DNA of 64,000 nt, from contig JAQJZZ010000001.1 of assembly GCA_030077755.1 (NCBI GenBank), positions 1,674,001 through 1,738,000 of the forward strand. The letters run 5' to 3'. The position numbers were made by a program, and so were the translations under genes. Positions 16,310-23,545 of the stretch are shown in pieces. Every line of letters starts with the position of its first letter. The stretch's first letter is position 1. Source of the DNA: Filosporella fistucella (Eukaryota; Ascomycota; Leotiomycetes; Helotiales). Under the pieces are notes generated by a model, which was given only the letters and a program-made list of their open reading frames with translations, was not told where the DNA came from and ran no database searches.

Positions 16310-17176
16310 ATGGTTTCCTTCTCCAAGATCATTCTTTCCGTTTCCATTTTCCTTCCAGTCATTCTTTCAGCTCCCATCGCCGAGCCTGGATTCATCATCG
16401 GCAAGCCATCATTCCCAGGAGGTGGTCTACACAGAACTGGCAAAAGAGAAGCCGAACCTGGCTTTATCATCGGCAAGCCTTCTTTCCCTGGAGGCGGACT
16501 TCATCGCACCGGCAAGAGAGATGAGGTAGAGATCGAAGAGAGAGGTTTCATCATCGGCAAGCCTTCTTTTCCAGGTGGAGGACTTCACCGAACCGGCAAA
16601 CGCGACACAGAAGAAGTCGAGATCGAAGAGCGAGGATTCATCATCGGCAAACCCTCCTTCCCAGGCGGTGGACTTCACAGAACCGGCAAACGCGACACTG
16701 AAGAGACAGAAGCAGCTGTAGAGGCAGAAATTGAGACCCGAGAAGCATCACCCGAGCCAGAACCAGGCTTCATCATCGGCAAGCCATCGTTCCCCGGAGG
16801 TGGGCTCCACCGCACCGGAAAGCGAGACAACGAAGAAATCGACATCGACATCCGCGATGCTTCTCCAATCATCGAAGAACTCAGTGCTCGTGAGGCAGCC
16901 CCAGAACCAGAGCCAGGCTTCATCATCGGCAAGCCTTCCTTCCCAGGTGGTGGGCTTCATCGCACTGGAAAGCGCGAGTCTGAGGATGTAGAGGCAGAGA
17001 TAGAGACAAGAGACGCAGCTCCAGAGCCAGCTCCTGCTCCTGGTTTCATTATCGGCACGCCTTCTTTCCCAGGTGGTGGACTTCATCGCACTGGAAAGAG
17101 AGAGGCTTCTCCTGAGCCTGGTTTTATCATTGGCAAGCCTTCGTTCCCAGGTGGTGGACTTCACCGAACTGGTTAA
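16310..17176 (+). CDS. secreted tandem-repeat peptide precursor (Kex2-processed, pheromone-like)
   Basis: Single exon, 288 aa. A signal peptide covers about residues 1-20/24 (MVSFSKIILSVSIFLPVILS). Eight copies of GFIIGKPSFPGGGLHRTG start at residues 27, 51, 79, 109, 153, 203, 245 and 271. Copies 1-7 are followed by Lys-Arg (Kex2 site); copy 8 ends at Gly directly before the stop. Copy 7 has Lys-to-Thr at position 6; the others are identical. Spacers are acidic, and those directly before a copy are X-Ala/X-Pro dipeptides (EAEP, EASPEP, EASPEPEP, EAAPEPEP, DAAPEPAPAP) or end in Arg (copies 3 and 4). This predicts Kex2 and Kex1 processing plus Ste13-like trimming to one 18-mer. The internal Lys is followed by Pro, which should protect it. 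It is not a known alpha-pheromone, it has no Tyr as dikaritin cores do, and no UstYa gene is seen. Role: secreted signal or RiPP, unknown. Confidence 0.93.
   Translation: MVSFSKIILSVSIFLPVILSAPIAEPGFIIGKPSFPGGGLHRTGKREAEPGFIIGKPSFPGGGLHRTGKRDEVEIEERGFIIGKPSFPGGGLHRTGKRDTEEVEIEERGFIIGKPSFPGGGLHRTGKRDTEETEAAVEAEIETREASPEPEPGFIIGKPSFPGGGLHRTGKRDNEEIDIDIRDASPIIEELSAREAAPEPEPGFIIGKPSFPGGGLHRTGKRESEDVEAEIETRDAAPEPAPAPGFIIGTPSFPGGGLHRTGKREASPEPGFIIGKPSFPGGGLHRTG
16388..17173 (+). repeat. eight copies of a 54-bp peptide-coding repeat
   Basis: Copies lie at 16388-16441, 16460-16513, 16544-16597, 16634-16687, 16766-16819, 16916-16969, 17042-17095 and 17120-17173. Spacer length grows towards the middle of the gene (12, 24, 30, 72, 90 bases between a Lys-Arg and the next core) and then falls (66, 18). 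The copies differ at many third codon positions (the first Ser uses TCA, TCT, TCC and TCG; the Arg before Thr uses AGA, CGC and CGA) while the peptide stays constant. Confidence 0.93.
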
Positions 17177-18097
17177 GCGTCTCTCCCTCTCTGGTTGAGC
17201 GGCTTTTTTGTTTGTGGGCTCCGTTCTAGAGATTTTTGATTTGTACATACAATTTTTCTTCTTTTCACATATTTTATTTCTTGCTTCTTCTCGATCGAGT
17301 CCCATTCTTTACGACTCTCTTTGATTTGTTTTACCTGGACTTTGGGCTTGGCTGTTGGATTTTGGATTGCGAATCAGGATGTATTCAGAATGAGATTGGG
17401 CTTATGGGATAGATATCGTGCTTACGACCATTTGGGTCATTGGTTAGATCGATGCTTGGGAAATTGATACAGGATAGATTGTCTTGGCTTGGCTTGGAAT
17501 TGGGTTGGATTGGATTGGCTTGTACTTGAATACTGGGTTGGACTTTGGAGCGAGCGGCATAGCGAAGGATTGGGAAAGGGACTCGGGAGATATTTTGGAT
17601 TTGGCGACTTTACTTGGGTTTTCTACGCAGGAGGAGGATTGAAATTCTTTCCTAGCAATGGAGGTTTCTCTTTCTATTCTCTTCCTTCTTTTTCCATTCT
17701 TTCCATGTCTCTTTGGGGTTTTCTCTTCACTTTCGGCTTTGCTTGTTTCATGGCTGGTGTTTACCAGAATTCAATTCTTGCCTACTTTAGGTAATATATA
17801 TTATAGGAGATTTATAGCAATTGATTGTTATTTTCATCAAACCCAATTTTCCTGGAAATTCTCTTTATTAGCCTTGGGATGGTCATCTTGATCATTCAGG
17901 GTGAGGTAGATTAAAATATTTATTAAACTGAGGTTCAGGGGCCAAGTGCTGTAGTTCCAGCGCTTCCAGTCTGTGGTTACCCCGCGATTTCCCCGTGCCT
18001 CTTTATTAAATACTCTTTTCGCGCTCTCAACTCAGGTGGCGATTTATGAATAAGGTTTTACAACCTCTCTCAACTTTCCCAAAATCTGCACGAAACC
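17177..18097. other. 3' flank of the precursor gene and convergent intergenic region
   Basis: T/G-rich sequence with a TTGGATT/GGCTTGG-like tract at 17480-17530. The 101-codon frame at 17489 falls in this tract and looks like a by-product of composition. The region separates the precursor gene from the convergent LtrA-like gene. Confidence 0.5.
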
Positions 18098-20232
18098 TCA
18101 AACTCCCTTTTCTCCTTCCACTCCATCCACCTTACCCTCCCCATTTTCCCTTCTTCCTTCACTAGGATATCCTGTATCAACCCAGCTCTCCCAAAATTTC
18201 GCTCCTCGCATCAGACTAGTTACATTTTCCCATATTACGCAAAAAACGATGAGGGCCATGATGATAGATAAAAGACTGGTGATGGAGAGATCGTGGGCGA
18301 GCGGGAGACAGATGATTATGATTGCGATGATCGGGCGGAGGAGGAGGCGAAATGGCTGTGGTGGGTTAGTAGTTGTATGGCTAAAGGATGGAAGTGGGTG
18401 AAAATGGGGCTAGATGACTATTGGAAGAGGTTTGAATCGCTCGAGCTAAGAGAGTGACAAAGCGAATCTTGGAAGGCATGAAAGGACAAGAGGAAAGCAG
18501 TAAACATACCTTCTCCAAAATCAACACTCCTTTCCCATCACCTGACTCATGTAACAGCGCAACAGTATACAAACAAAACAAACCTATTCCCAACCCTCCA
18601 CACAAAAGCCACAACTCAGGGCCATGTAACTCATCCACCTTCACACTAATAGCACTTACATGCCCGGCTACAAGTAGCGACGCGCAGAGAGGCAAATGGA
18701 TAGTCACCCAAGTGAAAGAAGCATAGATATTATGTTTGAGGGGATGGGTGGAAGTCAAAGCGCCGTCGTTGTGGATATAGAGCCAATTGAGACAGAAAGC
18801 TATTATCAGTGTCCAGATAGCGCGCAGGAAACGCATCGTGAAGCCTATGACTGCGGGACTGCCGACGATGATTTGGTAGAGGAATTCACCGAGGACGATG
18901 CTGGGGGTTGTCAGTAATTGCGGGACCAAGATGTGAGGTTAGAAGGAGAGAGGAAGGGTATGGAGAAAAGCATACATGTAGAAAGCGGCGAAACGATCAA
19001 CTTCATGAGGAACATCGACCGCGGTTGTAAATCTATTTTCAAGTTAGCTTATGTCCATTGCTCTCCTCTCCTCTCCTCAATTCCGTTCCCTTTTCATCCT
19101 CTTGAACATCTCTTTTCCCGTGTCCGAGTTCCCATTCCCCAAAAGCTACCACAACACACCTCAAGACAGAAACTGGAAAGGAAGATAAAAAATTACTCAC
19201 TTAGCTTTCAACAACTTCTTCGCAGCCGGTGAATAGCTGAAAATCCAGATACACTCTTCAACCACGATCCCCACGGCCGCAACGGCGATCTTGCTCTTGA
19301 TACTGATATCCTCCACATAAAGCGGGATATAGATACAGAGAGCGGTGGTAGAGAGGACGAACCAGAGACGCTGTTGAGCGCGGTGGTGGTAGGAAGCAAA
19401 CGAGTAGACAAGGTGAGTCAGGTTTGTGGAAAGACGGGCAGTCACTGGCGATTGTTAGCTTTTGGATCGAGGAAACCGGTTGACGAGGGGGGATTTTGGA
19501 GTTTGGATGAAAGGGGTAGCAGAAGATTAGTGGGATATATGTAGAAAAACAGGATGTAAAAGAATAAGGGGTGATAACATACTGTAAGCACCCACCGTCG
19601 CCCTCAAAGCACCAATATCCTCATCTACAAGCACAGCATTATTCCCGTACAGCACCAACAGCGCCATAATCCACAGAATCAACACTCGTTGCGCTAAATC
19701 ATCATTGTAGAACGAGTTCATTAGTTCCCTCAAATCAGACCATACGTGCCAGGAGGGAGCTAGGATGAGCTGTGTATGTCAGATTTTGGACATTGTTTAC
19801 GGGTATGACACGACTATGCGGGATACGAGAGGAAATTTCCTTTCAAAAAAAAAGAATAAGGAATCAGGCAGGAGAGTGGGAGGGAATGAAAAAAAAATTG
19901 TACTGTACGTACGATATACTTGCCCACCCCAGCTCCAGAAGCATGCTCGGCCAGGTTCTCCGCGAAATTGGCTAGGATAGCTACATATAGTAAATCGAGA
20001 AACAGTTCGAATCTTCCTATCTTCGTATCAGTCTCTTTCATCAACCTGTAACCCAGCCTCAAAATATCCACGATATATCCTGTAGATTGATAATTGATGT
20101 TGACTTACCAGCCTGTCTCTCATGCTCCTGTCTCTTGACCAATTCACCATCTTGAAACCACTGTAGCGCAAGCGGTTGTCTAAACAGCGCTCGCGGCGTC
20201 TGGACTTTTTGAAGCTGTACTACTTCCGCCAT
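18098..20232 (-). CDS. LtrA-like (low temperature requirement A) membrane protein
   Basis: Complement join(18098..18355, 18510..18900, 18976..19032, 19201..19444, 19583..19769, 19913..20016, 20109..20232), 454 aa. All joints use GT-AG introns and keep frame. The start is MAEVVQLQK at 20232. The N-terminus (QWFQDGELVKRQEHERQAG|RFELFLDLLYVAILANFAENLAEH) is the hallmark of the LtrA family, followed by many TM helices. At 18356-18509 a 27-nt exon coding for LERFKPLPI might be included, splitting one intron into two; both versions stay in frame. LtrA proteins are widespread in fungi and bacteria, with no firm biochemical function. It is convergent with the peptide precursor gene, and nothing in the sequence links the two. 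Confidence 0.82.
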
Positions 20233-21983: not shown

Positions 21984-23545
21984 TCAAACGGCAATTGGTT
22001 GTGGTGCAACAGCTGGCACGATAGGGGTTTGTTCCTCAGTCTTTGGGGCCTCTTCTTCTACAACGGCGGGGGTTTCTTCGGTCTAGAGGGGGGGTTGTTA
22101 GTTTTTGTGTTATGGTAGGAGGGAGTAAGAGAATGGGAGCGCGGAGGATAATTGATGTGCTGAGAGGAAGAACGTGGCGGCAAGGGTTAGAGATAGCGAG
22201 GAAGAAATAAACATACAGCAGCAGGTGTCTCCTCAACAACAGCGGGTGTCTCTTCCTTGGAGGACATTAGCTTCCATGCCTTTTGCAGCAGGTTAAGTTT
22301 CGGACTTACGACGGCGGCGGCGGCTGGGGTCTCGGTTTCGGCCTCGGTTGCGGTTTCCTCGACCTGGAGGTTGTTAGCTTTCATCCTTGCTTGAACTCTT
22401 CGGGGATCAAGAGTTGAATGAGTAGGGAATACTTACAGCTGGAGTTGTCTCTTCAACAGCAGGTGTCTCTTCGACAACTGGTGCGCTTTCCTCTACTACT
22501 GGGGCAGTTTCCTCGACCTTGGCTTCTTCGACGACAGGGGTCTCCTCAACAGCTGGTGTCTCCTCAACTACAGGTGCGCTCTCTTCGACAACGGGAGTAG
22601 TCTCCTCAACTTTCGCTTCCTCGACAACAGGTGTCTCTTCTACAACTGGCGCACTTTCCTCGACGACAGGAGTAGTTTCCTCAACCTTTGCCTCCTCCAC
22701 GACAGGTGTCTCTTCTACAGCTGGTGCACTCTCCTCCACAACTGGGGTGGTCTCCTCAACCTTGGCTTCCTCAACAACAGGAGTCTCCTCAACCTAAAAT
22801 CACGTCAACTCTATCCTTTAGTCAAAATTCTTCATACATGACATTCTCCCTGGAAAGGAGGAAAGTATTCAAAGTTTCCTGTGAATGGAGGAAAGAATTC
22901 GAGACTCACTGCTGGGGCAGTCTCTTCTACGGCTTTGGCTTCTTCGACCTGGGGGTTGTTAGTGGAGATTCCAAATTATGCGGCGCTTGGAAATGGAGGG
23001 TTTGGAAGGGTGGGGTATAACGGGTGTTGAATGGAGAACTTACAACTGGGGCAGTCTCCTCAACAACTGGAGCACTCTCCTCTACAACAGGGGCAGTCTC
23101 CTCGGCCTTTGCCTCCTCAACTACAGGAGTTTCCTCAACAGCTGGTGCCTCCTCAGTCTTGACCTCCTCCTCGACAGGCGCTGGGGTATCTTCAACCTAA
23201 GATAAAAATTAACAACCCATTCAAAAAAGTTAGCCACTCTTTCGGAAACTTACAACTGGAGCAGACTCCTCAACAACTGGTGCCTCCTCGGCCTTGACCT
23301 CCTCAGTGGCAATTGGTGCCTCAACTACAGGCTCCTCTTGTGTAGCAGCTGGTGCGAGAGCAGCCTCACGTGCTTCGATAGCAGCCTCACGGGCATCGAG
23401 AGCAAGCTCACGTTTTGTGGCGTTTTCCTCACGGAGAGCAACCTGTGTATGTTAGATGAAGATTCAAGAGATATAATCGAGTCGGGGTGGATCTTCAATG
23501 GGAGGGAGGACATACAGCAGCTTCTCTGGCATCAATTTCAGACAT
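21984..23545 (-). CDS. acidic Val/Glu/Pro/Thr repeat protein, modular phase-0 exons
   Basis: Complement join(21984..22082, 22217..22255, 22310..22363, 22437..22793, 22910..22948, 23044..23196, 23254..23442, 23516..23545), 319 aa. The N-terminus (MSEIDAREAA then LREENATKRELALDAREAAI) is a charged amphipathic helix that could be a coiled coil. After that the protein is almost entirely repeats of VEETP, VEEAK and VEESAP. It has no signal peptide or TM and is predicted to be disordered. All seven introns fall between codons (phase 0), and most exons begin with V/E-E and end in a Pro-Ala or Pro-Val pair, so exons can be gained or lost without breaking the frame. I know of no function. The strong negative charge suggests a scaffold or a buffer-type role, which is speculation. 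Confidence 0.75.

Follow-up and report, generated by a model that had tools for sequence, protein, structure and literature searches.

An eight-copy 18-residue peptide precursor of Filosporella fistucella, a candidate Kex2-processed secreted signal

The gene and its eight repeats

The gene described here lies in the window, i.e. the whole stretch of 64,000 nucleotides of Filosporella fistucella DNA that was analysed (C1:1674001-1738000), and codes for a precursor of 288 residues. In this precursor, the 18-mer GFIIGKPSFPGGGLHRTG, whose computed monoisotopic mass is 1796.97 Da, is counted eight times: seven copies are identical, and copy 7 carries a Lys6 to Thr change. The computed [M+2H]2+ values are 899.49 for the common form and 885.97 for the Thr6 form. 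The repeats account for 144 of the 288 residues (8 x 18), and Cys, Trp and Tyr are all missing from the protein. A sequence-only reading of this DNA had announced a gene for eight near-identical 18-residue peptides, and both the reading frame and the copy count confirm it. The parts of the gene, in window positions, are the following.

16310..17176, + strand: whole precursor gene, a putative Kex2-processed repeat protein (KEP) of 288 residues plus stop codon (from the open reading frame list; single match in its own genome)
16310..16369, + strand: predicted signal peptide, residues 1-20 (from hydropathy and the signal profile of the relatives)
16370..16387, + strand: ladder AP-IA-EP ahead of copy 1
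16388..16441, + strand: 18-mer copy 1
16442..16447, + strand: first of seven KR sites, which start at 16442, 16514, 16598, 16688, 16820, 16970 and 17096
16448..16459, + strand: ladder EA-EP ahead of copy 2
16460..16513, + strand: 18-mer copy 2
16532..16543, + strand: IEER, candidate single-Arg Kex2 site abutting copy 3 (motif as in PMC8528282)
16544..16597, + strand: 18-mer copy 3
16622..16633, + strand: IEER ahead of copy 4
16634..16687, + strand: 18-mer copy 4
16730..16765, + strand: IETR and ladder EA-SP-EP-EP ahead of copy 5
16766..16819, + strand: 18-mer copy 5
16880..16915, + strand: LSAR and ladder EA-AP-EP-EP ahead of copy 6
16916..16969, + strand: 18-mer copy 6
17000..17041, + strand: IETR and ladder DA-AP-EP-AP-AP ahead of copy 7
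17042..17095, + strand: 18-mer copy 7 (Lys6 to Thr)
17102..17119, + strand: ladder EA-SP-EP ahead of copy 8, after KR
17120..17173, + strand: 18-mer copy 8, up to the stop codon and without KR

Seven of the eight copies are directly followed by KR and the eighth by the stop codon, so that the natural C-terminus of the 18-mer would be HRTG. The separation of the copies by Lys-Arg, as it had been claimed, holds on their C-terminal side and does not hold throughout on their N-terminal side, where the residues are not always Lys-Arg. The start of the protein resembles a signal peptide: the mean hydropathy of residues 7-19 is 2.9, and the signal profile of the relatives described below gives 18.9 bits on it, against maxima of 10.6 and 14.7 bits in two sets of 1000 shuffles each. 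The following ladder and the relatives point to a signal cut after Ser20.

The gene gives one match in its own assembly (45.8 Mb, 19 contigs). A second copy was not found with the precursor and the related proteins P0001, P0007 and P0027 as queries, a search that distant members escape, since one of the queries missed even the precursor. The reading frame is open from end to end and the repeats are readable without an intron. Loosely defined splice words do match within it, three of them of the 5' kind and eight of the branch or 3' kind; an intron is formally possible, and its removal would break the repeats. The Pfam names obtained for the precursor (VEGFR-1-like, Secapin) are at chance level only. 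An antisense open reading frame of 185 residues (window 16748-17305, minus strand) overlaps the gene and is probably a shadow of the repeats. The next gene downstream, convergent with the precursor gene, includes an exon of an LtrA-like membrane protein (window 18384-18938, minus strand; Pfam 6.4e-9), and a 128-residue open frame of PVVEE/KVEET repeats is found at window 22410-22793, minus strand.

The comparison of the codons of the eight copies (28 pairs) gave a mean pS of 0.59 (dS about 1.16) and a mean pN of 0.014. Variation between copies affects 17 of the 18 codon columns, yet only one residue in 144 differs. The eight copies are not the product of recent duplication or conversion. Because such events would leave the synonymous sites alike, the identity of the peptides is attributed to selection on the amino acids, which gives evidence, inside one gene, of a long-lasting selection on a peptide sequence.

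Predicted processing of the precursor

The N-terminal side of the copies follows a small number of arrangements. Copy 1 is preceded by the signal peptide and a ladder of X-Ala/X-Pro dipeptides; copies 2 and 8 are preceded by KR and such a ladder; upstream of copies 3-7 is a single Arg in an [IL]xxR motif, with a ladder in the case of copies 5-7 and none in the case of copies 3 and 4. The ladders, which comprise zero to five dipeptides, are in register with the copy starts, and for the six of them together the joint probability of this register is 3.8e-7, as computed by shuffling within the ladders. A rule that combines a Kex2 site (KR or [IL]xxR) with a Ste13-type ladder is obeyed by 8/8 copy starts, against 26 of the 251 other positions in the precursor. 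Kex2 is described as favouring an aliphatic residue at P4 and as being tolerant at P2, where the best alternatives to Lys are Arg, Thr, Pro, Glu and Ile (PMC8528282). One of these five residues occupies P2 in five [IL]xxR motifs of the precursor (IEER twice, IETR twice and IDIR), the exception being the sixth, LSAR.

The genome itself contains Kex2-like and DPPIV-like genes: the proprotein-convertase P domain is found at one locus and DPPIV_N at two loci. An amidation of the animal-neuropeptide style, at Gly-Lys-Arg, was considered and rejected: the repeats of the relatives end in GS, GH, SG, TG or GGSY before KR, so that Gly is not a fixed donor.

The KEP class and the helotialean relatives

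Two surveys describe KEPs as a class, with 1193 in 226 species (Le Marquer et al. 2019, PMC6339444) and 7878 in 1345 strains, of which 838 types were distinguished and 2560 were without homologue (Umemura 2020, PMC7329392). By the definitions of these surveys, a KEP contains three or more repeats, each 8 residues long or longer and bounded by dibasic sites (PMC7329392), and no less than 15% of its length consists of repeats (PMC6339444). With eight repeats of 18 residues, seven KR sites and half of its length in repeats, the precursor fits, from its sequence, the definition of a KEP, and it has in common with the class a predicted signal peptide, the repeats, the dibasic sites and the Ste13 signature. 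The surveyed proteins were scored on dibasic sites, whereas the precursor would need many N-terminal cuts at a single Arg in [IL]xxR; such cuts would be a processing rule that published dibasic surveys would not score.

Conserved core motifs are named in the accessible text of PMC6339444 and PMC7329392, and the 18-mer is not one of them; the literature listings on KEPs since 2020, on Helotiales together with Kex2 and on the family words do not name the helotialean family described below; the supplementary KEP lists of the two surveys may contain relatives of the precursor. The word undescribed, which the sequence-only reading had used, can be kept for the core and the family within the literature examined and must be given up for the class. 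In a study of other fungi, in which Pichia pastoris also served as a laboratory host for KEPs, the KEP peptides detected were linear or showed minimal modification, some with Ste13-like trimming, and the knock-out of six KEP genes of Coprinopsis cinerea gave no axenic phenotype (PMC9769878), so that a hormone-like role is not to be taken for granted.

Two hits came from a first protein search, in which 7995 word-sharing candidates were scored: at E 3.8e-13 a hypothetical protein from Stipitochalara longipes (P0001), and at E 4e-6 a metagenome protein (P0002). Alignment-based searches widened the set to 12 and then to 66 rows at E up to 1. The family as counted here comprises 26 proteins, P0001-P0009 and P0013-P0029; P0010 and P0011, with Cys pheromone-like cores, and P0030, with Gly-Tyr repeats, were dropped before counting, and P0031-P0067 were left out, P0031, P0034, P0039 and P0055 among them having been inspected. 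The family includes the following hypothetical proteins of named fungi, and further members are metagenome proteins.

P0001: Stipitochalara longipes, N431DRAFT_429865
P0003: Hyaloscypha variabilis, V8E51_017636
P0017: H. hepaticicola, NA56DRAFT_662472
P0027: Acephala macrosclerotiorum, BDZ45DRAFT_727359

Stipitochalara, Acephala and Hyaloscypha belong to Helotiales. The relatives share with the precursor a MPSxSKLLLLSTLLLSGALSLPVAEP-like signal peptide, the ladder and an [LI][TH]R motif near the repeat ends. The MPSxSK-type start is present in 25 of the 26 members, and [LI][TH]R plus a few residues stands at one or more repeat ends in 26 of 29 proteins (the family, P0012, P0034 and the precursor), or at 73 of 188 Kex2-bounded ends, a total that counts spacer ends too. 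Within one precursor the relatives combine several cores, whereas that of Filosporella contains one core eight times. An NTL spacer (mostly ARNTLE.I), which may be a second peptide, occurs in 15 of the 26 relatives (P0001-P0008, P0013-P0017, P0020 and P0023), alike despite their differing cores; it is missing from the Filosporella precursor.

A family profile built without the precursor, P0001 and P0002 gave 89.2 bits on the precursor, against 33.1-47.6 bits on four unrelated KEPs, 11.0 bits on the fungus's own pheromone precursor and 60.7 bits on the related P0012; P0034, at 42.4 bits, is inseparable from the unrelated KEPs. None of 500 whole-protein shuffles reached 89.2 bits (420 of them gave any score). 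When parts of the protein were shuffled, the profile score was reached in 0/500 cases for the signal alone, 1/500 for signal and core, and 13/500 for the core alone, which means that part of the score is explained by the shared grammar, a solid part by the signal peptide and a modest part by the core. The homology would be carried by the signal peptide and the first repeats, the core alone being weaker. Among 159 pieces, the best matches of the 18-mer are the first-position repeats GFIIGKPGLTLHRGS of P0002 (score 46) and GDGWHPSASTGSLGLHRTG of P0001 (score 35; this repeat ends in GLHRTG), both of which have parts in common with the 18-mer, the next piece scoring 26. Shuffled cores reached 46 in 2/2000 cases and the mean over first-position pieces in 0/2000, in a comparison that is not independent of the search, P0001 and P0002 having been found with the precursor as query. 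These matches suggest that the 18-mer would descend from an ancestral first repeat. P0027 is a weak member: the family signal profile gives 0.5 bits on its signal region, and as a query it finds the precursor at E 0.03, as its sole match in the genome. A match of PF25319 on P0001 was set aside, being just below the cut-off and covering 13 residues.

The start grammar of the precursor recurs in its relatives: in 23 proteins it is obeyed by 82 of the 85 core starts, compared with 404 of the 3243 other positions. This count covers 23 of the 29 proteins, with core patterns picked by eye after inspection of the proteins, and uses an [LIV]xxR rule so loose that 12% of other positions pass it. One of the three misses is in P0016 and two are in P0009, where they may be an artefact of the placement of the core start. 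The repeat sequences change greatly between species while the repeats and the Kex2 sites persist: neither eroded repeats nor lost Lys-Arg sites, the signs to which the sequence-only reading had looked for evidence against it, were seen in the relatives inspected. The precursor probably belongs to a fast-changing and unnamed helotialean KEP family.

A candidate secreted signal and its alternatives

The model we propose, to which we give a rough probability of 0.55, is that of a Kex2-processed precursor releasing a linear, secreted and lineage-specific 18-mer signal. The precursor would enter the secretory pathway, where Kex2 would cleave it on the C-terminal side of KR and of [IL]xxR. The KR remaining at the C-terminus would be trimmed by a carboxypeptidase (Kex1), and a Ste13-type dipeptidyl aminopeptidase would remove the X-Ala/X-Pro ladders from the N-terminus and halt at Gly-Phe. 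The product would be eight equivalents of the linear 18-mer, seven in the common form and one in the Lys6Thr form, and the peptide, once outside the cell, would serve as a signal proper to the lineage and addressed either to the fungus or to a biotic partner. The gene, its repeats, the selection on the peptide, the processing grammar and the Kex2-like and DPPIV-like genes are seen in the DNA; that the precursor is secreted, where it is cut, which form is mature and whether it signals are inferred. The processing to the 18-mer is highly probable; the signalling role, which is the weakest step, would be somewhat favoured once processing is granted.

Of the other explanations, the one that survives best, while being improbable, is that of a secreted antimicrobial or antagonistic peptide, i.e. 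a cationic Gly-rich 18-mer that hits competing microbes. The 18-mer is net positive, Gly/Pro-rich and without Cys, Gly/His-rich cores such as GGFHGGGASRGH and AHGHGGSGRG occur in several relatives, and the word GFHSGG is also met for crustacean glycine-rich antimicrobial peptides, a lead at chance level. However, eight copies with one change in 144 residues are more than bulk composition needs, and neither an amphipathic nor a disulphide design is evident. Distinctly less plausible is a surface-active or wall-coating peptide like the repellent peptides that Ustilago maydis makes from Rep1, a Kex2-cut repeat precursor of the same logic (PMC8528282): the FIIG in the N-terminal half of the 18-mer is hydrophobic, but the peptide has 18 residues with a basic and Gly-rich C-terminal half, and the hydrophobic half is not retained in relatives, e.g. 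GDGWHPSASTGNLGLTRSG.

A modified or cyclic RiPP precursor of the dikaritin type is very unlikely. The precursors of dikaritins (ustiloxin, phomopsin) share the layout of Kex2-cut repeats, and the genome possesses the machinery, with 27 exon-level UstYa matches; but the precursor lacks Tyr, Trp and Cys, and on its contig no UstYa match lies closer than the one at 807-808 kb, which is about 0.88 Mb from the gene at 1690 kb. UstYa was not found among the 30 window frames that were scanned with Pfam (of 110 frames of at least 100 residues), which gave a transcription factor, MFS, DHDPS, LtrA, amidase, CDH-cyt, GH31 (two frames), HET and GrpB. Both hallmarks of dikaritins, a Tyr core and a nearby UstYa (DUF3328) gene, are absent, as the sequence-only reading had foreseen for the core, and by the absence of UstYa nearby the locus appears to be no RiPP cluster. 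Elsewhere in the genome, HHTEAQIAAKKAKAAKNARDVEVEAREP-type repeats at C9:6109600-6110899, minus strand, stand a few kb from the UstYa matches C9:6112655 and C9:6115508 and are probably a dikaritin-type precursor with its own cluster.

Less likely still is that the 18-mer serves as a further mating pheromone, perceived by Ste2 or by some other receptor, even though the gene product has the layout of an alpha-pheromone precursor and the repeats differ strongly among species, as mate-recognition signals may. In common with the alpha-factor precursors of Leotiomycetes (PMC10569646), the precursor has a signal-peptide-like start, repeats, KR, X-Ala/X-Pro ladders and the processing sites for Ste13 and Kex1/2, which bears out the alpha-factor-like design first read from the DNA. 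The alpha-factor peptides, however, have 9-14 residues with Cys and GQ, and the 18-mer has neither; it is the Cys part that fails, since the dipeptide PG, also named as a turn in PMC10569646, occurs within FPGG. The fungus has, besides one Ste2 match, a standard pheromone precursor on another contig, by which the precursor as a pheromone replacement is ruled out.

C9:6023428-6024264: own alpha-pheromone precursor, 278 residues, with seven RCGYPGQPCG repeats and one RCNLVGGAC variant

The claim that the 18-mer is not a pheromone of the WCGRPGQPC type also stands. The exact pattern has 0 matches in the genome and WCxxxGQxC has 4, none of them a pheromone (in another coding frame or with a stop, one having TGA inside the match); CxxxGQ[PGAR]C has 47, mostly scattered, seven CGYPGQPC copies being clustered at C9:6023515-6024198. 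The h-type pheromone precursors of Trichoderma likewise have repeats with Kex2 sites and end in a C-terminal CaaX box, whereas the precursor ends in HRTG. As for the pheromone of the fungus itself, RCGYPGQPCG-type repeats are known in Mollisiaceae, Ploettnerulaceae and Drepanopezizaceae (PMC10569646), which suggests a place for Filosporella near these three families. Least likely of all is an uncut repetitive secreted or wall protein with incidental KR sites and ladders: cleavage is predicted from the sequence, but the ladder register, the grammar obeyed by every copy start and its recurrence in relatives with different cores speak against it.

Beyond the secreted 18-mer signal that we favour, one may imagine a helotialean peptide-signal system in which each lineage fixes a version of a short peptide as its own, the [LI][TH]R address at the C-terminus being conserved. 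In Filosporella the ancestral first repeat would have filled all eight places and stayed fixed while the synonymous sites saturated; elsewhere other repeats would have taken over. This extension is speculative and rather unlikely. If true, it would amount to a second, non-mating alpha-factor-like channel with species-specific ligands, serving self or partner recognition through a receptor other than Ste2.

In conclusion, most KEP peptides are of unknown function, and the precursor offers an exact predicted product, an 18-mer whose ends and mass are defined and for which the helotialean relatives form a comparison set. If the 18-mer is a signal, it would open a way into non-mating peptide communication in Helotiales, a large fungal group with plant-associated and soil-dwelling members.
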